Positions 1 to 25,160 of a stretch of DNA of 27,062 nucleotides are shown piece after piece (the stretch's first letter is position 1; each line of letters opens with the position of its first letter). The stretch lies in IMG/VR virus record IMGVR_UViG_3300030107_005999, positions 1 to 27,062 of that record; one strand, 5' to 3'. The notes under the pieces were generated by a model that was not told the DNA's origin, searched no databases, and worked only from the letters and a program-made list of their open reading frames with translations. Source of the DNA: a virus. The position numbers and the translations under genes are program-made.

Positions 1-3000
1 ACTGCCGGAACTCCAGCCCGATTCGCTCTGGGGGATGGACAATCATATCGTCCCCAAACTCCAGGGATGGCTCAAACTCTTCCTGGTCCAGAGCCTTCTT
101 GAGGGCGTCTGTATCGACGGATGCCATCAGGGGGACTGTTGATAGGAGACTGTTGTACCGCTCCTGGACATCCATTATGGAAGTCATCTGACCGTCTGTA
201 ATGCCAAGCCCATCGGCAAAGGCCTCGGTCAAAGAGTCTATCGCCGTGTTAAGACTCCCCGCTCTGAATGTATTCATCGGCGTTTCGGTAAACATCTTGC
301 CCATCCTGGGCGCGGCCTTCGAGAGAAAGGCGGGGAACTGGGAGATCGACATGAAACCAAACGCCCTTGAGCCAGGCATCACCCCTACCTCACCTTTCAT
401 GTTTGTCCATGGAATCTTTGTTGGGGTTGATAGCATCGTTGCGTACATTGGCTGTCGAAGGTAGTTGAGAAAGTCTTCAATGCCCTTTCTAAACGCCCCC
501 CGCACCTTGTCCTGATACCCCTTTTCAGTCTTACGGAACTCTTTAATGTCCTTGATGAATCTGCCTGTTGCCGGGTTGTATAACCCTGGCAGTTTTGTTG
601 CGGGGTCTATCTTGTAAAACCCCATCTTCTCAAGATTTCTCAGCCCTGCTGTGTGCTTAAAGCTTGCGTCACCCCACGTGTACAGCATGCCTGGTATCTC
701 CTCGAACAGAGTCTTGAATGCTTGCCACCTCGTGGCCTTCCCAAGGCCAAACAGCCGGGCCTTCATGTTTGCATTCATCGGCAGCATAAGCTCGAGCGTG
801 TTATCCATTAGGTCTTTAGCCGAACCAAAGAACCCACGCATGGCCTTGCCCTGCGCTTGGACCAATCCCTCTGCCCTTGCGAAGTTGGAGTTATGGACCC
901 CTTCCTCAAACGCAATGTTGAAGAACAGACTTTTGTTTTGCGATGCCGTGTCTCGAGTCATCTGCTCGTAAAGCTTCCACCTGCGCGGATTAAACGGGTT
1001 GATGTCTGCGTATACGCTAAAGATTACGCCGTTGAATGCCCCGTTTCTCAGGTGAACGGCAGGGTGTCTGATTGTGAAGTTCCCCTTCATGTGTCGAACG
1101 TACCCACTGATCCAGGTTCTTGCAGCCTCCTGTATGTATTCGCTTAGTAGGATGTCGTACAAGAGTTCCTTGCGAATCCAGAGGCCAGAGGCATCGTGGT
1201 ACTTTCTGGCCTTGGACTTCCTTGTGACGTCCATCTCCCAGCGCACCTTCCCGTCCTTGCCCTTGATCTCTCGCCAACTCGCTAACTCTCCCTTTGGCGG
1301 TCTATCCGTTCGGGTCCTTGTTTCTACCTTGCGCTCAAACAGGTGGGTGTTTGGAAGTTGAGCCCAGTTAGATCTCTGCGCCTTCGTCCAATGAGCAGGC
1401 AGGCTATCGAGGACAAACGGCTCCGCGATCTCCCAGACCTTTGCGCCAGGAAGGGGGGCCTGCTTGCCCTTCATCTTGGCCAATGCGTTGAAGTATTCCG
1501 CATTCGCAACAGCCTGTCGAAGACTTCGGATGCCGCTAAAGACTTCTTGATTCAGGTTCTGGATGAGTCCGTATTTCTTGACCCGGGTCTCGAAAGGAAC
1601 GCCAGCCTGCCGAAGCTCATTGCCAAGACTCTTTCCAGTGCCCGTCCTGACGCTGTGAAGCTTGTCTGCGTTTTGCTCGATATGCTTATGCAATCTCCGA
1701 AGCTCACTACGGGTCCTTGGCACTTCACTGCTGAATTTGTTTTTGTACCACTCCACAAATTTTGAGTTCTGCTTGTAGCTCTCAGGCATCCACCACTGAA
1801 GCGCCTGCGATGGATTGTCTATGATTCCATACTTCTTCCCCAACGCCACTGTGTCGGCTATCTGCTGCGAGAGAGGCTTCGCCCACTTATTCAAAAGGTC
1901 CCGTCGCTCAACCAGGTCAGCGAGGCGTGCCTTCGCGTGCTTGTTGCCCTTGGACTCCATCAGCTTGAGGAACCTGCCGACGTCAGAGTCAATCTCCCAT
2001 TGCCCGCGACCGCCCCGCTTCGAGGCCTCAACCCACCGATAACCGTCGATTCTGTTGTTTCGAGCATTATCAAGACGTGTCCTTAGCTTGTCGATTACGG
2101 CGAGCATCTGCATGCGGTCTGCCTTTGATGCGGTCTTGATGAATGCCGCCTCGTACTGATGGAAGACGTTTAGCTCCTTGAAGGTGAAGCTGGACTGTGC
2201 CGCCTCGGTATGTAGCGCCTCACCGACTCGCTTTCTGATGTTGTATGTCTTCCCTTTGTATGTGATTGTCTTGTCCGGTATGGCCTGCAATGCAGCATGT
2301 GCATCCAGATCCCACTGATTCATCCGGGTGTTCATGTGCTCTCTTGCAATCCCGTCAATTGCAGCAGGGATAATCTTCTCCGGGGAGCGGGTAAACTTTT
2401 TCCACCACGCCATCCCGCTTCGCTGCCCGACAAGCCTGTTATATATGAGCCGAGAGAACTCAAACGGCGCAATCCAAGAACCCATTGGGTACAGCTTCGA
2501 GGCAGATACGATAGCCTCAGGAAGCGAGGTGTAAATCTTATCAACGTAGGAGAGGTAGCCCCTCTGCTTGGCCGCAGCATCCCACCTGTTCTCAATCCAC
2601 TTCTTGCCAAGAGAGAGTAGAGGCTCTGGCGGGTTCCTGAGGAACCGAGTTATCGACAGTGGATCTCCCCCAAACATTACACGAGAAACCCCCTCCATTG
2701 GCTGGCGAGTTATACTCAACGGGTCCCGGGCAAACCGCCACGCCTCGATGTCCTTCCGGAGGCTCTCCCGAACCCACACATCACGACCAGCCGCATTCAC
2801 CCTCTTCACCCAGCCAGACTGCATAGTGGGCGGCTCAGAGAATCTCACCTCAGTACCCCATCTGAAAGTACCTGGGGCCGCTGGAAGCTGCGGGGTGACC
2901 TTCTCGTAGTACGTTCGTCCCCCACGCCCCGTCTTCTTTACCCACTCCCCCTTGACGTCTGACTTCGGCTTAGTCCAAGTTCGCACGGTCCCAGGCCCCT

Positions 3001-5935
3001 CTGCAATGTCAGACACATACGTCCCCTCGGCGTACTTTACGGGGCCATCTGACGGCTGGGCCAAGGCGCGGCCAGTCAAAGAGCCAGCCTCTCTCGCATG
3101 AACATCATCAAAGGCCTTATTGGCGGCACTAAGCTCGGCTTCTGCCTGGGAAACCCTCCGCTTGGCGGCTGTGCTCATCACGCGATGAGCCATTCCAGAT
3201 GCCTCCTCCGCAGCAATTAGCTCCTCCCGCGCTGCCTTGAGTTCTGACCTGGCGCTGTTGACCCTCGCACTGGCTTCAGCCGAGGTTGCGGGCCTGGCCC
3301 CCTCTTCCTTTATGGTCTTGTAAGCCTGCTCTCTGAGGCTGTGAAGAGTGGCCTCTTTGCTGCGCGGGGACTTCTTGTTCAACAAGACCTTCAAGTCTTT
3401 GTTGGCCTTTGACAGCATCCGCTTTATCTTTCGCTTCTTCGCCCTCGAGCCCTTCCCTTTGGTGCTCATGTACTCTGCCTGAAGACTCTGGATCCTTCTC
3501 TTCAACTTGGCGATCTTTGAACTAAGGACGGGGAACTCCTTGTTTCTGGCCATCACCTCGACAAGGTGATTGTTCTGCGAGACATATTGCGTTGTCTGAT
3601 CAACCGATCTTGCGGAGTTGTAGTAATCCGCAACCTCTGCCACCCGGGAATCAAGCCTCGTAGATGGCTTCATTTCTTCCGCAAGCGCCCTGCGGGCTGC
3701 GGCCTCTTGCCAGGACTTCTTGCTTCTTATCCACTTAGGAACAGGCTTCACTCCACCGATTAGAACTGTGGCAGCACCAAACGGGTCTTCCGCCACAATA
3801 ACCTTTGGGTCCGCAAGCAAGCCGTAGCCTATATTTGGCACTGCCCCTGCCATCTCCCCAGCGGTTCTTATGGCCATAGGCGTCTTTTCATAAGCATGCT
3901 TAGGCGTGGAGGTTGCATACAGCCCCTGAAAGGCAAGCTCGAGTGTGCCAACCATCGCATGCCAAAACCCCGGCCCGAAGCCGGAAATGCCCTCGGCGGT
4001 GGCCTCCAGCATTGTTTGGTCGGACTTGGATAGCCCCGTGATATCAAACATCATCGGGTCAAGCCCGTATCTCTTATAGGTCTTGAAGAACTCAATATCC
4101 CCCACGGGATGCTCTCCACGCCACCCCCCGCTGAGTTCACTGCCAGACAGGGCAAGCCCGCCTTCTATCCAGGTCTTAGATCTGAAAAGGGAAGGTATCG
4201 CCTGTCCGAGGAATCGGCCCATGTTCAGAAAGGTCAGGGGGCTCTTCTCCTGGGGGTCATACGACCTTGCCCCGTGACGCTTGTGGAGCGGGTCATCCGC
4301 GCTATACCCCTCAACCCCCCTTGCATAATCCGTAACCGTAGACCCAAGCCCGAGGAGGATGGAGTGCGGGCTGTATCGAACCATGATGTTGTTATGCCAC
4401 CGCTCCGCATCAGATAGGTTTCCCGCCAGCCGATACCCGTCAATCTCAACAGCCTCGACCATCTCGCCCCTGGCCGCACCACTAAACCAGTCCCACCACT
4501 CAAGAGGATTGCCAGACCCTTTCTTTGCGGCGTAGAACTCTGCGTCGTGCGGCGTGAGCTTCGCCTCATAGCTGCCGGGGAAAGAGAAACTCAGCCCCCA
4601 GGGGAGGTGCATGGTTCTCGGGGCCGTCACGCGGACAGTCTTTGCTTTGTGAAGGACCTCGCCCTTATCAACCGAGATGAGGATCGGGGACTCCTGTCGG
4701 GACCTGGCTCGCTTGAGAACCTGTAGCTGATCGTTCAGTCTACCTCTCAGGTCTTCCAGGTCTGTCCTCCCCGTGGCGCCCGGCGTCTCGCGGGTAAGTG
4801 TTGCTCCCTGACCAGTCTTTAAGGAGCGGAACGTGGTGACCCCATGCTCCACCTCCTCCTCGGAGAGGCCTGATGGTCGATATCCATCAACCGCAATATC
4901 TAGCGCATTCAGCTTCTCATCAACCTCCGCAATCTCCCTGTTGAGGCGCTGGATTCTTGCATCGTGAGTTTGGTGTTTATTCGGAACCAACTCCAGTCCC
5001 CGGGTCGGGTTGTAGACGAAATCCGTGTTTGGAGAAAGCTGGACCTCCGTCGTGGGGCGGGGGGCTTCAACCTTCTCCACCACCTCAACGGGGCCGTCTT
5101 CGGTCTGAACGGTCCTGGACCTAAAGGAATCTATGCTCGCAACCTCAGGGGAGATATCCTTCGACATCTTGAGTTGGTCTGGAATGTAGTGGTCCGGGAT
5201 TGCAACCCGGTGCTCGGGAACATCAGTCCCTGGCCATGTTCTTCCGGTTGGGACAAGTACTGCGGCTGCATGAGGTTTGTCCTCGCCCTGCCACTTGGCG
5301 CCAAAAGCCTTGGCGAGCCCCAGTTTGTACTCCGCGAGGAATTTGGACTGAAGGTCTCTCTTCTTCGTTCTGTACTCGTCCCATGGGAATGGCTTCCTCT
5401 GCTTGTGCATCAGGTCGAGTTTTTTCATCGCAGCCTTATGGCGCCTGAGAATCTTGTGCGGACTTACCCCGGCAGCGGCCCACCTCGGATCCGACATGAC
5501 CGACCTGAGAGTTACATCCTTCCCCGTCTGAGGCTCCATCCCAGGAGTCTCGGTCGTGACTCGGGGCTGGTACCAAGATGATCCCTTGAACTCCGGCTCC
5601 TTTGATGCCCACTGGGTCCCCTCGGGGCCTATGTCGTAATGGCCCGGTAGTTTTGATTCGGGATCGGGCAAGATGCCCGGAGTGACCCCTCCAGTGTCAG
5701 AAAGAAGATTGGCGGCGCGAGCAATGTCCTCTGTCCTTGCGAGCGGGAGACCCCTCTCAAACCTCTTGGTCTGGTGCTGAAGGGAAGGAGGAGCGTAGTC
5801 CCGATGAGGGCCGTGAGCAGCAGTGCCAAGCGCAGCAGCAGCCTCATCAATATCGGGAGAAGTTTTGCTGCCCAGGCCCTTCTTAAGGCTATCCAGCAAA
5901 TCAAATACACTCTGACCATATCTAGGCGTTGGCAC
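1..5935 (-). CDS. Giant virion protein, probably ejected/internal (3' end outside window)
   Basis: A single minus-strand frame runs without a stop from a GTG at 5935 to the window edge, giving at least 1978 codons; the stop lies outside. The GTG is chosen because GAGGA sits 6 bases upstream, and it overlaps the previous stop by 14 bases, as other junctions here do. The product is hydrophilic and rich in Lys, Arg and Ala, with no signal peptide seen. Residues about 800-945 are a long charged coiled-coil-like stretch (repeated KLKRRIQSLQ-, ARSELKAAREEL-like heptads). A DPLSITR motif occurs twice near residue 1080. Size, position at the end of the late cluster and lack of enzyme motifs fit the very large internal or DNA-ejection proteins of podovirus-type phages, or the 'large polyvalent protein' class. 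I recognise no catalytic domain. The gene is certain; the role is inferred. Confidence 0.85.
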   Translation of the reverse strand, partial: MPTPRYGQSVFDLLDSLKKGLGSKTSPDIDEAAAALGTAAHGPHRDYAPPSLQHQTKRFERGLPLARTEDIARAANLLSDTGGVTPGILPDPESKLPGHYDIGPEGTQWASKEPEFKGSSWYQPRVTTETPGMEPQTGKDVTLRSVMSDPRWAAAGVSPHKILRRHKAAMKKLDLMHKQRKPFPWDEYRTKKRDLQSKFLAEYKLGLAKAFGAKWQGEDKPHAAAVLVPTGRTWPGTDVPEHRVAIPDHYIPDQLKMSKDISPEVASIDSFRSRTVQTEDGPVEVVEKVEAPRPTTEVQLSPNTDFVYNPTRGLELVPNKHQTHDARIQRLNREIAEVDEKLNALDIAVDGYRPSGLSEEEVEHGVTTFRSLKTGQGATLTRETPGATGRTDLEDLRGRLNDQLQVLKRARSRQESPILISVDKGEVLHKAKTVRVTAPRTMHLPWGLSFSFPGSYEAKLTPHDAEFYAAKKGSGNPLEWWDWFSGAARGEMVEAVEIDGYRLAGNLSDAERWHNNIMVRYSPHSILLGLGSTVTDYARGVEGYSADDPLHKRHGARSYDPQEKSPLTFLNMGRFLGQAIPSLFRSKTWIEGGLALSGSELSGGWRGEHPVGDIEFFKTYKRYGLDPMMFDITGLSKSDQTMLEATAEGISGFGPGFWHAMVGTLELAFQGLYATSTPKHAYEKTPMAIRTAGEMAGAVPNIGYGLLADPKVIVAEDPFGAATVLIGGVKPVPKWIRSKKSWQEAAARRALAEEMKPSTRLDSRVAEVADYYNSARSVDQTTQYVSQNNHLVEVMARNKEFPVLSSKIAKLKRRIQSLQAEYMSTKGKGSRAKKRKIKRMLSKANKDLKVLLNKKSPRSKEATLHSLREQAYKTIKEEGARPATSAEASARVNSARSELKAAREELIAAEEASGMAHRVMSTAAKRRVSQAEAELSAANKAFDDVHAREAGSLTGRALAQPSDGPVKYAEGTYVSDIAEGPGTVRTWTKPKSDVKGEWVKKTGRGGRTYYEKVTPQLPAAPGTFRWGTEVRFSEPPTMQSGWVKRVNAAGRDVWVRESLRKDIEAWRFARDPLSITRQPMEGVSRVMFGGDPLSITRFLRNPPEPLLSLGKKWIENRWDAAAKQRGYLSYVDKIYTSLPEAIVSASKLYPMGSWIAPFEFSRLIYNRLVGQRSGMAWWKKFTRSPEKIIPAAIDGIAREHMNTRMNQWDLDAHAALQAIPDKTITYKGKTYNIRKRVGEALHTEAAQSSFTFKELNVFHQYEAAFIKTASKADRMQMLAVIDKLRTRLDNARNNRIDGYRWVEASKRGGRGQWEIDSDVGRFLKLMESKGNKHAKARLADLVERRDLLNKWAKPLSQQIADTVALGKKYGIIDNPSQALQWWMPESYKQNSKFVEWYKNKFSSEVPRTRSELRRLHKHIEQNADKLHSVRTGTGKSLGNELRQAGVPFETRVKKYGLIQNLNQEVFSGIRSLRQAVANAEYFNALAKMKGKQAPLPGAKVWEIAEPFVLDSLPAHWTKAQRSNWAQLPNTHLFERKVETRTRTDRPPKGELASWREIKGKDGKVRWEMDVTRKSKARKYHDASGLWIRKELLYDILLSEYIQEAARTWISGYVRHMKGNFTIRHPAVHLRNGAFNGVIFSVYADINPFNPRRWKLYEQMTRDTASQNKSLFFNIAFEEGVHNSNFARAEGLVQAQGKAMRGFFGSAKDLMDNTLELMLPMNANMKARLFGLGKATRWQAFKTLFEEIPGMLYTWGDASFKHTAGLRNLEKMGFYKIDPATKLPGLYNPATGRFIKDIKEFRKTEKGYQDKVRGAFRKGIEDFLNYLRQPMYATMLSTPTKIPWTNMKGEVGVMPGSRAFGFMSISQFPAFLSKAAPRMGKMFTETPMNTFRAGSLNTAIDSLTEAFADGLGITDGQMTSIMDVQERYNSLLSTVPLMASVDTDALKKALDQEEFEPSLEFGDDMIVHPPERIGLEFRQ

Positions 5936-20754: not shown

Positions 20755-20969
20755 TATCGCTCCCTTCGGCCAGCAACGGCAGCTTCTAGGCTGTCGCGCT
20801 GATACATGTCAAATGAGTCCCACTGCTTTGACTTGTCGGACTCTAACCGCAACTTCTCAAGCTCGTCTCTGCGTTTGGAGTCCTTGTGCATAAGCCAAAT
20901 GAGCGCCACCTGCATCGACATGGTAAAAATGTAACACAATAAGAGGAAGAAAAGTAAATAAGTCTGCAT
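20754..20969 (-). CDS. Small membrane protein with charged helical tail (holin/spanin-like?)
   Basis: A 71-residue protein; its ATG overlaps the stop of the large terminase gene (TAATG). One strong membrane segment lies at residues ~4-27 (YLLFFLLLCYIFTMSMQVALIWLM), followed by a charged coiled-coil-like tail (KDSKRRDELEKLRLESDKSKQWDSF). This shape fits an inner-membrane spanin or a single-span holin, and no other lysis gene is seen in the window, but a membrane-anchored assembly factor is equally possible. There is no endolysin neighbour to support lysis. Confidence 0.6.
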   Translation of the reverse strand: MQTYLLFFLLLCYIFTMSMQVALIWLMHKDSKRRDELEKLRLESDKSKQWDSFDMYQRDSLEAAVAGRRER

Positions 20970-22759
20970 TACCAGTACTCCGAAGAGCCAAGATGTGGGT
21001 CAGAGCGAGGGGATTCATCCATCATCAAGTCCCTAGCATACACCGCCCCGGGCTCCCTTTTGGGCTTTGGAGTGATGTCAATTTCTGATGACATCCTCTC
21101 TGAAATTTCTGAATCAAGGTAAAGGGCGATAGCCATCGCCATTACCGCATCATCATGTTCTCCAGGCATCGCCTCGGCTTTCCCTGTCGATGATTCGATA
21201 AAGGTCTGGCATTCGCCCAAAAGACGCAGCGAGTGAAAGTCCCATGACTTATCCCGGATGGCCTTAGCCAGCGCAGCAATCGCCGCATCTCTTTTTCCTT
21301 GGGCCCCAGTTCTGAATCCAAACCTTTGGGTCCAGTTACCGCTCTGAGATCGAACATAGATATTCCGGTACCCATCGCCGCCATTCATATCCAAAAGCTC
21401 ACGCACAACAGCCAGCCCTGGCCCATCAACCTCAGGGATAACAATTGCAAAATTGTAGGCTGACGCCACGGTTGCAGCCTCTCTTGCCACAACATCTGGC
21501 GGAACCCTGGCATAAAACTCGGCCACCTGGCAGCGGTCAGTGACATCGAGGACCTGTACGCAGCTAAAGTCTCCATCATCGATGCCGTGTGCCGAGTCAA
21601 TGGTTACGATGTACTGGTGGTTGGGGTTCACCTCTTTGTAGATTTGCCAGTTATCTTGCCCTGGGAAGATTGTGAGTTTGAATCCATCGTATGAGGCGGC
21701 TGACCCAACCGTCATTTTGGGTGGGTTGTCTTTTAGCTCATCAATTCTGTCAGAGATAATGACTTGATCGAATGGGCTTTTCCCGCTTGAGGTGAAGGCA
21801 ATCTGCGCCGAAAGGGGATACTCGGTATCGAACCGGGTCATATCACCATCGAACTTTGTCTGAAGAACTTGCTGCGCCCATCGAACCTGGCACGGCTTCA
21901 AATCATACTCGACAGCCCGCTCTGACCAAGTCTCGTTGTATCCCATCTGCCTACCAAGGTCGAAAAAGAACTCCATGTCCTCCTTCTCATAGGCATCCAC
22001 CAACGCCTGGTGCTTTTCGTTATCGCCTTTTTGCGGCTCTAGCCTGTAGCGGTCGTGCTCCTGCCACCCGAAAAACAGGGCATCGAACATATTGCCTGGC
22101 TCGTTTCTATGCGCTTTCCAGAACCGATTGTAGAATGCACCGGAGGCTCCATTGGCTGTGGACTCGATGATGATGTACGTGCCGGGTTTTGGATCTACAG
22201 AGCCCATCTGCGCCTGAAGCACATCCTCGTCTGTAGTGGAACGACGTCTTTTCCACCAAAGCGCAAGCTCTGAAATATGAACAAACGATGGCGTGGAGCC
22301 CCGGGCCGCATCCGTTGAACCCTGCGTTTCCACAGAGAACCTAGAGCCGTGCTTCCAGGAGATTGAAGAGCCAACCGCCTTGCCTGGTGCAATGGAGGCA
22401 ATGGATGACGGCAGGTTCTCCTGATATCTTTTTGTAATCTGGAAGACCTCTTTGGTCGATTCCTTCAAGTGCGCCACAACCTTCGCATTGGCATGAGGAT
22501 GGAACTGGCAATAGTGGTGACCGAGCGCCTCAATCAGAGTAGAGCACCCCATTTTACGGGCCTTGAGAATGATGATGCGAACAGGTCTGTTTTGAAACTC
22601 CTGCTCCTCGATGGTCTGTAAGATTCGTTCCTGCTCTTCATTTAGAATAAACGGGACGAGCTTGTAGTATCCATCCTTCAGTGCGCGGATCCTCAAACAA
22701 TGCTTGAAGTAAAACCGCCTATCACGCTTACACCTGTCCCAAAATTCTCTAGGGTCCAT
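20969..22759 (-). CDS. terL: Terminase large subunit (packaging ATPase-nuclease)
   Basis: I take ATG 22759, because TAGGA lies 7 bases upstream; the GTG two codons earlier is too close to it. The product is 596 residues. ATPase: Walker A-like KARKMGCST (~66-74), Walker B FVHISE (~159-164), coupling motif ESTANG (~199-204). RNase H-like nuclease: VTIDSAHG (Asp ~388), IPEVDG (Glu ~443), GEHDDAVMA (Asp ~536-537). All key acidic residues are present. It docks on the portal, pumps DNA and cuts concatemers. It follows the small-terminase candidate after a 95-base gap that holds a strong inverted repeat. Confidence 0.95.
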   Translation of the reverse strand: MDPREFWDRCKRDRRFYFKHCLRIRALKDGYYKLVPFILNEEQERILQTIEEQEFQNRPVRIIILKARKMGCSTLIEALGHHYCQFHPHANAKVVAHLKESTKEVFQITKRYQENLPSSIASIAPGKAVGSSISWKHGSRFSVETQGSTDAARGSTPSFVHISELALWWKRRRSTTDEDVLQAQMGSVDPKPGTYIIIESTANGASGAFYNRFWKAHRNEPGNMFDALFFGWQEHDRYRLEPQKGDNEKHQALVDAYEKEDMEFFFDLGRQMGYNETWSERAVEYDLKPCQVRWAQQVLQTKFDGDMTRFDTEYPLSAQIAFTSSGKSPFDQVIISDRIDELKDNPPKMTVGSAASYDGFKLTIFPGQDNWQIYKEVNPNHQYIVTIDSAHGIDDGDFSCVQVLDVTDRCQVAEFYARVPPDVVAREAATVASAYNFAIVIPEVDGPGLAVVRELLDMNGGDGYRNIYVRSQSGNWTQRFGFRTGAQGKRDAAIAALAKAIRDKSWDFHSLRLLGECQTFIESSTGKAEAMPGEHDDAVMAMAIALYLDSEISERMSSEIDITPKPKREPGAVYARDLMMDESPRSDPHLGSSEYW

Positions 22760-22784
22760 AAACACATCCTACAGGAAAGAAGGT

Positions 22785-22854: not shown

Positions 22855-23388
22855 TCACTGGGTCCCACTGGGAGCAACCCTATCTTTCTTCCGAGCACGC
22901 TTCACCCCCGCCCGCTTAAGAGCCTTGCGGACCTGATAAAGAGATAGCCCCGTCTTTTTTACAACGGCCCCCATCGTAAGTCCTGACTTATACAAACGGA
23001 CAGCATCACGCTCTATCGGAGTATTGTCACCCTCCATGTGAGACAACCCAAGATTCACAGTCGCCGCACTCACACCATCAAACTGGGAACGAGCCTGAGC
23101 CTCATCGAGCTTCGCCTCCAAAGGGTCCGCGCCAAATGGGTCCCACCCCTCGTCACCAGATACACAGACAGCCTTCTCAACCATAGAGCCTATCTTCTCG
23201 CGAACGCGAACATAACTGTCCACCCCGCGAACAAGACGACCCAACTCCGCTATGTCGCCACCAGCCTCCTGTATCGCGCTTTGCAACATACGCTCCGCAC
23301 TCACAGCGGCAGACAACCAGTAGCTGGCCAAATCCTTTTCAATTACAGAAACAGGTATCGGTTTTGTTATTGATTTATCTTCTGTCAC
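22855..23388 (-). CDS. Probable terminase small subunit (C-terminal HTH)
   Basis: A 177-residue protein starting at GTG 23388. No Shine-Dalgarno is visible, and the start lies inside a palindrome. The N-terminal two thirds are helical (KDLASYWLSAAVSAERMLQSAIQEAGGDIAELGRLV; VREKIGSMVEKAV). Residues ~127-162 form a helix-turn-helix (RDAVRLYKSGLTMGAVVKKTGLSLYQVRKALKRAG), followed by a basic tail. Its place directly before the large terminase supports a DNA-recognising small subunit. The HTH at the C-terminus is unusual, since small terminases generally carry it N-terminally, so a late transcription regulator is the main alternative. Confidence 0.65.
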   Translation of the reverse strand: MTEDKSITKPIPVSVIEKDLASYWLSAAVSAERMLQSAIQEAGGDIAELGRLVRGVDSYVRVREKIGSMVEKAVCVSGDEGWDPFGADPLEAKLDEAQARSQFDGVSAATVNLGLSHMEGDNTPIERDAVRLYKSGLTMGAVVKKTGLSLYQVRKALKRAGVKRARKKDRVAPSGTQ

Positions 23389-23405: not shown

Positions 23406-23810
23406 ATGAAAACTAAAACTCAACAAGTATCTGTAGCTTTGGAAGAATCATGTCACGAATTGGTCCGCAGGACATCGGAAAAGACAAGACTAACAATCCA
23501 AACGCTAATCGATGTGGCCGTGGAATCATTCATTGGGTCTTTGGAAAACTACGGACTATCAGTGCCAGCAACCGATAGGAAGGCTCCAAAGGGGCAGGGC
23601 TATGAAAAGCGAGCGGTCATGAGCAAGTCACTGCACGTAAAGCTAAATGAGATCGGCGTCTTTCTCAATGTACCCGTCAGTGCCATGATCCGTGACGCAA
23701 TACTCGGGCAAAGATTCAACTTCCAAAGAATGCAACCAGTGAACGCAAGAGCAATGGGCTCGGTAAGACAAACACTTTTCAAAATCGAACAACAACCGCC
23801 AGCTACCTAA
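23406..23810 (+). CDS. Double ribbon-helix-helix DNA-binding regulator
   Basis: A 134-residue protein. ATG 23406 is the first start after an in-frame TGA at 23400; no Shine-Dalgarno is present, so the message may be leaderless. Residues ~5-47 read as a ribbon-helix-helix unit: strand QQVSVAL, helix EESCHELVRRTSEKTRL, then TIQTLIDVAVESFI. Residues ~68-102 repeat the plan: strand RAVMSKSL, helix HVKLNEIGVFLNV, then PVSAMIRDAILG. Two such units in one chain would make a single-chain pseudo-dimer. It lies against the 22-bp palindrome, so autoregulation and control of the divergent late cluster are likely. Confident in DNA binding, less in the exact role. Confidence 0.7.
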   Translation: MKTKTQQVSVALEESCHELVRRTSEKTRLTIQTLIDVAVESFIGSLENYGLSVPATDRKAPKGQGYEKRAVMSKSLHVKLNEIGVFLNVPVSAMIRDAILGQRFNFQRMQPVNARAMGSVRQTLFKIEQQPPAT

Positions 23811-23889
23811 TCACACACACACACCTCTCACGCGTACGCGCGTATGTATATACACGCGCATGACAAAGGGGGGTGTGTGTGTGTGATTA
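23808..23889. repeat. Cruciform with (CA)n/(GT)n arms and alternating purine-pyrimidine core
   Basis: Arms 23808-23825 and 23872-23889 are perfect 18-bp reverse complements made mostly of CA/TG repeats. The spacer holds a run of 33 strictly alternating purines and pyrimidines (23830-23862, rich in CG, TA and CA steps) with its own GCGCGT/ACGCGC hairpin. Such sequence is prone to left-handed (Z) DNA and cruciform extrusion under supercoiling. It starts inside the regulator's stop codon area and could act as a transcription barrier or supercoil sink. Confidence 0.8.
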
Positions 23890-23982
23890 AGTGTGATCCA
23901 AAAAACGTGCGATTTACTTTATGGGTACCTGCAAGCATATCGCGCGACCCCAATCAAAAATAAAATAGTACTCCCCCCATGT

Positions 23983-24000
23983 TTGGCACGATACTTGCTT
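23983..24000 (+). promoter_or_regulatory. Sigma-54 (-24/-12) promoter, first of three
   Basis: TTGGCACGATACTTGCTT matches the sigma-54 consensus TGGCACG-N4-TTGC exactly, with GG and GC separated by exactly 10 bases. The start site would be near 24010, right where the 9-base repeats begin. Sigma-54 promoters need an ATP-dependent activator, normally bound upstream; none is seen in the window, so a host activator would be used. Confidence 0.7.
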
Positions 24001-24044
24001 GTGTGCCGAATTGTCCGAAATGTCCGATTTGTCCGTTTTGTCTC
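24000..24044 (+). repeat. Five 9-base iterons with TGTCCG core
   Basis: Units start at 24000, 24009, 24018, 24027 and 24036 with strict 9-base period. The three central ones are AATTGTCCG, AAATGTCCG and ATTTGTCCG; the flanking ones are degenerate (TGTGTGCCG, TTTTGTCTC). The last runs into a palindrome. A regular TGTC half-site array just downstream of the first promoter is a plausible repressor or initiator binding site. It is not a CRISPR: units are adjacent with no spacers. Confidence 0.75.
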
Positions 24045-24062
24045 AATATGAGACACCAAAAC
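24035..24062. promoter_or_regulatory. TGTC/GACA palindrome downstream of promoter 1
   Basis: TGTCTCA-ATA-TGAGACA (24039-24055) is a perfect inverted repeat. Outer GTTTTG/CAAAAC arms extend it to 28 bases with slight overlap. It shares TGTC/GACA ends with the palindrome at 23383-23404, so the same ribbon-helix-helix protein could bind both. Operator function is inferred. Confidence 0.6.
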
Positions 24063-24117
24063 GGGACACATATACACATGCGCATATATTACACACACGC
24101 GCACACAAAGGTTACAC

Positions 24118-24135
24118 TTGGCACGATCATTGCTT
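24118..24135 (+). promoter_or_regulatory. Sigma-54 (-24/-12) promoter, second of three
   Basis: TTGGCACGATCATTGCTT matches TGGCACG-N4-TTGC with the exact 10-base GG-GC spacing. It differs from the first site only in the N4 spacer region. Predicted start near 24145. It lies 135 bases from the first site. Confidence 0.7.
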
Positions 24136-24170
24136 GCTCTGCATCATCCATGCCAACATAGTCAACACAC

Positions 24171-24188
24171 TTGGCACATTGTTTGCAT
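24171..24188 (+). promoter_or_regulatory. Sigma-54 (-24/-12) promoter, third of three
   Basis: TTGGCACATTGTTTGCAT keeps TGGCAC, TTGC and the exact 10-base GG-GC spacing; only the final G of the -24 element is changed. Predicted start near 24198. It lies 53 bases from the second site, same orientation, reading towards the structured RNA and the small genes. Confidence 0.65.
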
Positions 24189-24275
24189 GCTCGCCAGTCC
24201 AACACACACCAAACCACACACAAAACACGACCAAACCATGTACGTTTTTTGCGCGTTTCCACTGTCAACAATGTG

Positions 24276-24302
24276 CCAAAACACCCCAAAACACCCAAAA
24301 CC
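24276..24302. repeat. C-run/A-run tract (G-quadruplex potential on minus strand)
   Basis: The plus strand has CC, CCCC, CCC and CC runs separated by AAAACA-type spacers with a 9-10 base period. The minus strand therefore carries four G runs, enough for a two-layer quadruplex. It sits in a longer AC-rich, structure-poor plus-strand segment. Confidence 0.5.
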
Positions 24303-24471
24303 TAAACGCTGCACTGCGGTACAATCGACATGGGAAATACGAATATGCTTGCAATCTATGTCTACAGGCCTCATTGTTGACCCCAGGTTCAGGGATGAAT
24401 CAGGCCCAACGGGGTTCGCTCCTAGTAAGTCACCTGCCCACATGATGTGGGAGGTTCTTTGACAAAGCGCA

Positions 24472-24642
24472 GTTTCAGTCAGTGTTGAGTGTTCAACCGG
24501 ACGCCACTAGGCCAACCAAGAACACTCGGCACAACCAAAGACGGTTCAAGCCGTTGGGAGTTATCAGGCATAACCACCGTTGGGAGTATCACGGGGCACA
24601 CTAACAAGACGTGCCGCTTGAATGCTCAACACTGACTGAAAC
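24472..24642 (+). ncRNA. Candidate structured RNA closed by a 25-bp stem
   Basis: Arms 24472-24496 and 24618-24642 pair along all 25 positions, 23 Watson-Crick and 2 G-U. The G-U pairs form only in plus-strand RNA; the minus-strand copy would have A-C mismatches. Inside the 121-base loop are further helices: CGGCAC/GTGCCG (24527-24532 with 24611-24616), GCC-ACTA-GGC (24503-24512), ACGG/CCGT (24541-24554), GTTAT/ATAAC (24560-24574) and CCGT/ACGG (24577-24594). Together these make a multibranched fold. CCGTTGGGAGT occurs twice (24551, 24577). It lies downstream of all three sigma-54-type promoters and has no sensible frame. Function is unknown; a regulatory RNA, a packaging-type RNA or a processing site are options. 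Confidence 0.6.
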
Positions 24643-24701
24643 ACATGAAAGGGAAGCAGGCATGCCATTGGGCAGCGCGGACCTAATGAGAGTTGATTCC
24701 G

Positions 24702-24718
24702 CTTGCAGTGTCCGCAAG
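24702..24718 (+). other. Small hairpin before the arginine-rich gene
   Basis: CTTGC-AGTGTCC-GCAAG forms a 5-bp stem with a 7-base loop, 26 bases before the ATG of the arginine-rich protein. A short hairpin by a gene for an Arg-rich peptide recalls boxB/N pairs of lambdoid phages, but there is no other nut-site evidence. Confidence 0.3.
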
Positions 24719-24743
24719 TCAAACCAAAGGAACGGTGACGACT

Positions 24744-25160
24744 ATGGGACAACGTAGCAAAGCGATACGGAAACAGCGACGACGCAGCAAAGCACAACAG
24801 CGCGCCCGTCAATACTCCCGGCAAATGTCAAACATGCGGACTGATAACGAGCATACCGCAAACTTGACCACGCTGGACAGTGAACGACACAAGGGCTGTT
24901 CCTTACTGGAACAAGTTATCGAACTTTTCAAGTCTGTCAGTGTTCCATTCGCACACAACAACGGACGGTGTCCACGGTGGATTCAATCAAGAGTCCGCAA
25001 GGATGATTGGTCGTACAAACCTTGGAACAATCCGAACAAACGGCGCAAGCGTATCAAAACAACAACTCCACAAGCTAAACCAGTGCAACAGGGCAAGGTT
25101 GAAGAGCACTTGCTAGCACTGAACGACATGAAATCGAAGGTCATGTATATGACCGCATAA
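24744..25160 (+). CDS. Arginine-rich small protein, possible RNA-binding
   Basis: A 138-residue protein. I take ATG 24744, because GGTGA lies 5 bases upstream; in-frame GTG 24735 and TTG 24693 are alternatives. The N-terminus is an arginine-rich helix (GQRSKAIRKQRRRSKAQQR, continuing ARQYSRQM) like the RNA-binding arms of phage N-type antiterminators. A second basic cluster is near residues ~95-105 (NKRRKRIK). The middle contains LLEQVIELFKSVSVPF and a Trp-containing segment (RWIQSRVRKDDWSYKPW). It is the first gene after the structured RNA. RNA or DNA binding is likely from charge; antitermination is only a possibility. Family not recognised. Confidence 0.6.
   Translation: MGQRSKAIRKQRRRSKAQQRARQYSRQMSNMRTDNEHTANLTTLDSERHKGCSLLEQVIELFKSVSVPFAHNNGRCPRWIQSRVRKDDWSYKPWNNPNKRRKRIKTTTPQAKPVQQGKVEEHLLALNDMKSKVMYMTA

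Follow-up and report, generated by a model that had tools for sequence, protein, structure and literature searches.

The viral sequence analysed here, a 27,062-nucleotide stretch of IMG/VR record IMGVR_UViG_3300030107_005999 (the window), carries a cluster of four sites in its divergent control region which are probably recognition sites for the host sigma factor sigma-54 (RpoN), given their match to the sigma-54 element, the strict spacing within each site, their persistence in relatives and their recurrence at the same genomic place in unrelated phages. Since many such phages carry the same tight clusters just upstream of their packaging genes, what is seen here resembles a widespread element of phage control more than three ordinary promoters.

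The window covers part of a phage whose portal, terminase and capsid genes are P22-like and lie on the - strand. It also contains a giant ORF (2-5935, -) of at least 1,978 aa, which runs off the record; Pfam gave no match to it and PHROG a marginal one at most. In the relative G002 (40.7 kb) the leftward arm holds structural, primase and lysis genes and the rightward arm an exonuclease, a Sak4-like annealing protein and an SSB-like protein. The sites lie between the two arms, 1.2-1.4 kb upstream of the terminase large subunit gene (terL), among the following features:

20969..22765, - strand: terminase large subunit, terL (PHROG phrog_2, E 4e-21)
22855..23388, - strand: probable terminase small subunit, terS (weak HTH; position)
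23406..23810, + strand: small Arc/ribbon-helix-helix-like regulator (weak profile match)
23811..24743, no strand: non-coding divergent control region of 933 bp, holding all sites
23983..23998, + strand: sigma-54-like site 1, TTGGCACGATACTTGC (exact match; 20.8 bits, E. coli matrix)
24039..24055, no strand: 17-bp dyad TGTCTCA-ATA-TGAGACA (from the sequence)
24118..24133, + strand: sigma-54-like site 2, TTGGCACGATCATTGC (exact match; 20.1 bits)
24118..24156, no strand: convergent (face-to-face) pair of sites 2 and 4, with a 7-bp gap
24141..24156, - strand: sigma-54-like site 4, TTGGCATGGATGATGC, the inverted partner of site 2 (16.4 bits)
24171..24186, + strand: sigma-54-like site 3, TTGGCACATTGTTTGC (exact match; 17.8 bits)
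24264..24279, - strand: degenerate inverted copy, TTGGCACATTGTTGAC, with the -24 half only and lacking the TTGC half
24349..24377, + strand: putative weak sigma-70-like promoter, TTGCAA-N17-CATTGT (from sequence comparison)
24453..24467, + strand: boxA-like leader element, GGTTCTTTGACAAAG (largely retained in the relative L004)
24744..25160, + strand: first conserved ORF of the rightward arm (MGQRSK...)

The leftward late arm opens with the probable terS. The Arc-like gene, which sits between terS and the sites, is conserved beside terS in the terminase relatives reaching that far.

An initial annotation had described the sites at 23983, 24118 and 24171 as three tandem sigma-54-type promoters, all in the same orientation, in a phage control region. 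The pattern TTGGCAC-N5-TTGC (11 letters) is exact at each of them and occurs three times on the + strand of the 27,062-base record and not at all on the - strand, and the reversed pattern used as a control gave no match in the record. That the grouping is unlikely to have arisen by chance was borne out by dinucleotide shuffling of the control region (23811-24743), where none of 4,000 shuffles contained even two matches and 13 contained one each; when the whole window was shuffled, a single match appeared in 2 of 150. Two of the sites, 23983 and 24118, are perfect to TGGCACG as had been stated, whilst the third, at 24171, has A at the last position.

For scoring, a matrix was built from 42 sigma-54 sites of E. 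coli, all of them intergenic and defined by ChIP-seq (PMC4591121). In a scan of the window for -24/-12 sites the three forward sites rank first to third, and a fourth, inverted site that the initial annotation had missed (24156-24141, -) ranks fourth, so that the original set is real but incomplete and the claim of a single orientation fails. Only these four matches in the window exceed the median of the E. coli sites; site 1 outscores 41 of the 42 ChIP sites, and even the inverted site 4, with two mismatches to the strict pattern, lies above the median. Whereas the four score 16.4-20.8 bits, the next-best match reaches 11.0, in line with the earlier statement that no further sites occur elsewhere in the window. 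A second matrix drew on 601 sites from other viral loci and excluded the pattern loci of two close relatives; it again placed the same four on top, with site 4 ranked fourth. GG and GC lie exactly 10 bp apart in the window sites, as in the sigma-54 element, and the sites, at matrix ranks 1-4, agree with the consensus YTGGCACG-N4-TTGCW; the term 'sigma-54-type' thus stands as regards the match to a -24/-12 site. By position, the forward sites would start transcription at about 24010 (site 1), 24145 (site 2) and 24198 (site 3), and site 4 leftward at about 24129.

Sites are present at the same place in L004, L005, L006 and L008 (98%, 91%, 91% and 69% terL identity respectively). Inverted partners recur here too: in L005 three sites are forward and several inverted, in L008 there is one inverted pair, and L004, L005 and L008 all carry a partner at the offset of site 4. 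In the forward sites of close relatives TGGCA and TTGC are constant and the spacer letters vary. The degenerate copy at 24264..24279, in which TTGGCACATTGTT (24279-24267, inverted) forms a perfect 13-nt inverted repeat of site 3 (24171-24183), is changed in L004. In more distant relatives (49-65% terL identity) the control regions are without the sites and have other repeated words; those of L009, L016, L018 and L020 contain CGGCAC, ATTCGC, GTGCGA and TGCACA in both orientations. A AAGGTACCC-like motif, possibly a packaging or end-related signal, is conserved after the Arc-like gene in L009, L010, L012, L015, L016 and L019, and its counterpart in the window is GGGTACC.

As the initial annotation had it, the sites lie in a phage control region. 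The three on the + strand are directed towards the arm that carries the recombination and replication genes. The first conserved ORF on that side, however, begins 550-730 bp downstream of the predicted sigma-54 starts with the sigma-70-like promoter in between; this promoter is conserved, is nearer to the first rightward gene than the sigma-54-like sites, and has a better counterpart in L005 (TTGCTA-N17-TATAGT). The dyad at 24039..24055 is a candidate operator or activator site, with its symmetry retained and its letters changed in L005, L006 and L008. From site 1 to the dyad (24011-24039), TGTCCG words stand in tandem about every 9 bp, and such words are present in L006 too. Compared with L004, the window has some 174 nt inserted directly 3' of the boxA-like GGTTCTTTGACAAAG (24468-24642). 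Its 29-nt inverted arms (24472-24500 and 24614-24642) are 90% complementary and the stretch around it folds better than shuffled sequence (z -3.5), and the order of boxA and then a long stem is reminiscent of an rRNA leader. Directly after the Arc-like gene lies a hairpin (23805-23892) with 44-nt CA/GT-repeat arms (fold z -6.7), possibly a two-way terminator, with a similar hairpin in L008. An Rfam search gave no match at gathering level, and its weak microRNA matches were rejected as CA-repeat artefacts of this hairpin.

Beyond these relatives, a 17-letter version of the motif found 43 loci in IMG/VR, many with more copies nearby in tandem or inverted order. Scans of IMG/VR for two half-sites at short distance from each other returned at least 120 stretches with the convergent arrangement seen at 24118..24156, at least 120 tandem and 108 divergent stretches, and none for a scrambled convergent pattern. 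In 257 Gb of GTDB genomes the convergent pattern occurred in only 8 stretches, of which several belong to short contigs and one is accompanied by a terminase gene. Two of these rare cellular pairs (L247, L251) adjoin genes that by eye resemble NAD-glutamate dehydrogenase and nitric oxide/flavorubredoxin genes, functions that are often under sigma-54 control in bacteria. Fifteen whole contigs held 78 sites and no match to the reversed control, grouped in one cluster in most and scattered in a few (e.g. G067). Wherever terL was in reach the cluster lay upstream of it (39 of 39 non-redundant loci, median 1.6 kb). By blast these terL loci fall together in a single broad component, and the terL of the window lies outside it. 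Cultured phages matched by BLAST with array queries were almost all Vibrio T5-like phages and Pseudomonas Pakpunavirus, and sites were read in Ceto, pVp-1, Kat and D419. Vibrio and Pseudomonas hosts possess RpoN; no enterobacterial phages were among the matches to the array queries, although their hosts have RpoN as well. A short-pair search of cultured phages gave chance matches only. A literature search confined largely to open-licence texts found no description of clusters like these, nor of phage sigma-54 arrays.

Several observations bear on the identity of the binding protein. The spacer between half-sites is strict across the viral sites (N5 in 1,445, N4 in none, N6 in one), and around GG-N10-GC near seed sites T-GGCAC-G/A and TTGC-A are enriched. 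Base frequencies in the viral clusters and at E. coli sigma-54 sites are similar at position 6 (C/T 0.60/0.40 vs 0.57/0.33), position 7 (G/A 0.65/0.31 vs 0.52/0.33) and position 16 (A or T 0.84 vs 0.90), though the viral loci were picked by motif and frequencies within the chosen letters are no independent evidence; because the searches required C/T at position 6 and, for most loci, G at position 7, position 16 is the freest test. An all-against-all comparison found no protein family common to all 15 genomes or records, the widest being terL (8 of 15), and a phage-encoded sigma-54 DNA-binding domain or activator was rejected, as neither Sigma54_DBD in 37 phage records nor Sigma54_activat in 31 was found. 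Together these absences make a host binder likelier, and they point to a host protein, most likely RpoN, which we favour with somewhat better than even confidence, a look-alike binder being the main rival. The Arc-like neighbour was rejected as binder, being conserved also in relatives lacking the sites and not among the families common to other array phages. P. aeruginosa SrpA and LfsT were likewise rejected, their motifs being different, and a TTGGCAC text match met in that check was a PCR primer. A search for the phage host via the capsid protein found no relative in GTDB genomes.

The arrangement of sites was analysed in 132 loci without shared 20-mers, for which the searches had sampled the distance ranges evenly. 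Tandem neighbours prefer 24-29 bp from start to start, with a peak at 26, and convergent and divergent neighbours each prefer 19-24 bp. Neighbouring sites are often 18-28 bp apart, which is tight for polymerase holoenzymes, and a spacing constraint in all three orientations is as expected of cooperative binding by a compact protein; both points speak against RpoN, as do the distance to the first rightward ORF with a sigma-70-like promoter on the way, the lack of sites in more distant relatives and the absence of enterobacterial phages from the array matches. Sigma-70 promoters by convergent pairs face outward in 45 cases, against about 10 expected, and inward in one. In face-to-face pairs, as with sites 2 and 4 of the window, the predicted start of each site falls inside the opposing element, and the two would not both be usable at once. 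A switch, occlusion or a decoy would fit this geometry, as would a smaller protein that binds cooperatively, but independent promoters would not; as for the proposal of three tandem promoters, unrelated phages pack half-sites too tightly for all overlapping promoters to fire.

Comparison with known systems frames the alternatives. The sites share with bacterial sigma-54 (RpoN) -24/-12 promoters the invariant GG-N10-GC, the sequence TTGGCACG-N4-TTGC-A/T and strict spacing, and outscore most ChIP-defined E. coli sites, but unlike them are clustered, overlapping and in both orientations, with no recognised activator site. RpoN-type phage promoters are already known from Pseudomonas phage YuA, whose record annotates three promoters with a -24/-12 consensus and high activity; their dependence on RpoN was reportedly confirmed with an rpoN mutant. 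YuA's promoter sites stand singly and depart from the strict pattern, and no cluster was present in the 50 kb scanned. It is conceivable, if rather doubtful, that the window sites are ordinary sigma-54 promoters, starting transcripts near 24010, 24145 and 24198 for the rightward arm, with the inverted copies incidental. RpoN would be the binder here as in our preferred explanation and only the function would differ. The near-perfect sites, their common direction, the recombination and replication genes ahead of them and the YuA precedent all fit, whereas the recurrence of inverted partners in relatives, and at constrained distance in unrelated phages, the long leader with a sigma-70-like promoter within it, and the lack of an activator gene in 31 phage records do not.

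An operator array is also unlikely, in which a compact host or phage DNA-binding protein, whose site resembles that of sigma-54 by chance, would bind cooperatively and repress or activate divergent sigma-70 promoters. The preferred distances in tandem, convergent and divergent order, the outward-facing sigma-70 promoters and the rarity of convergent pairs in cellular genomes are what it would produce, at the price of two coincidences, the agreement with sigma-54 at freely variable positions and the rigid half-site spacer, and in the absence of a common phage protein in the 15 genomes or records. Mycobacteriophage stoperators, likewise many asymmetric sites in non-coding DNA and bound by a monomer, occur only in related phages that share a single repressor, whereas the present clusters span phages with no detected common protein. 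It is very unlikely that the clusters serve packaging or replication, as cos/pac sites or origin iterons to which the phage's own terS or initiator binds: the position upstream of terL in 39 of 39 loci, and contigs that start or stop inside a cluster (several cases), would agree with it, yet terS families vary between array phages as the site stays constant. No co-variation with terS of the kind expected for cos/pac of one terminase family was seen, the same site occurring with unrelated terS/terL, and the contig ends of G002 fall in structural genes, not in the control region. RNA hairpins or cruciforms can scarcely be credited, for although inverted pairs are able to fold, the 4-nt middle parts of their arms are not complementary, the C/T position is commonly mismatched, and direct and divergent orders also occur.

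Three of the sites face the rightward arm (recombination, replication) and one the leftward late arm (terminase, head). If the sites are indeed read by RpoN, RpoN-RNA polymerase would dock at them as closed complexes, and of the overlapping face-to-face sites 2 and 4 only one could be used at a time; since these two would exclude each other, the cluster is probably a directional switch or occlusion element. It would tie the choice of arm to a host activator, or hold closed complexes waiting, whilst most transcription would come from nearby sigma-70 promoters. Sites 1 and 3 may also act simply as promoters whose output adds up. Because overlapping face-to-face sites cannot all fire, a switch, occlusion or decoy role appears as likely as promoter activity. 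More generally, we put forward tentatively that host sigma-54 site clusters of constrained spacing, in all orders and upstream of terminase genes, may form a widespread control element which, in place of ordinary promoter activity, uses the host's RpoN polymerase for docking, occlusion or switching, or acts as an RpoN decoy.

Should host RpoN read these clusters, the early/late control of many environmental phages would be wired to a sigma factor through which nitrogen, motility and stress state are sensed, and a new kind of regulatory switch, or an RpoN sink, would result from the overlapping geometry. Such phages can also be looked for by the cluster itself, which is a simple sequence signature.
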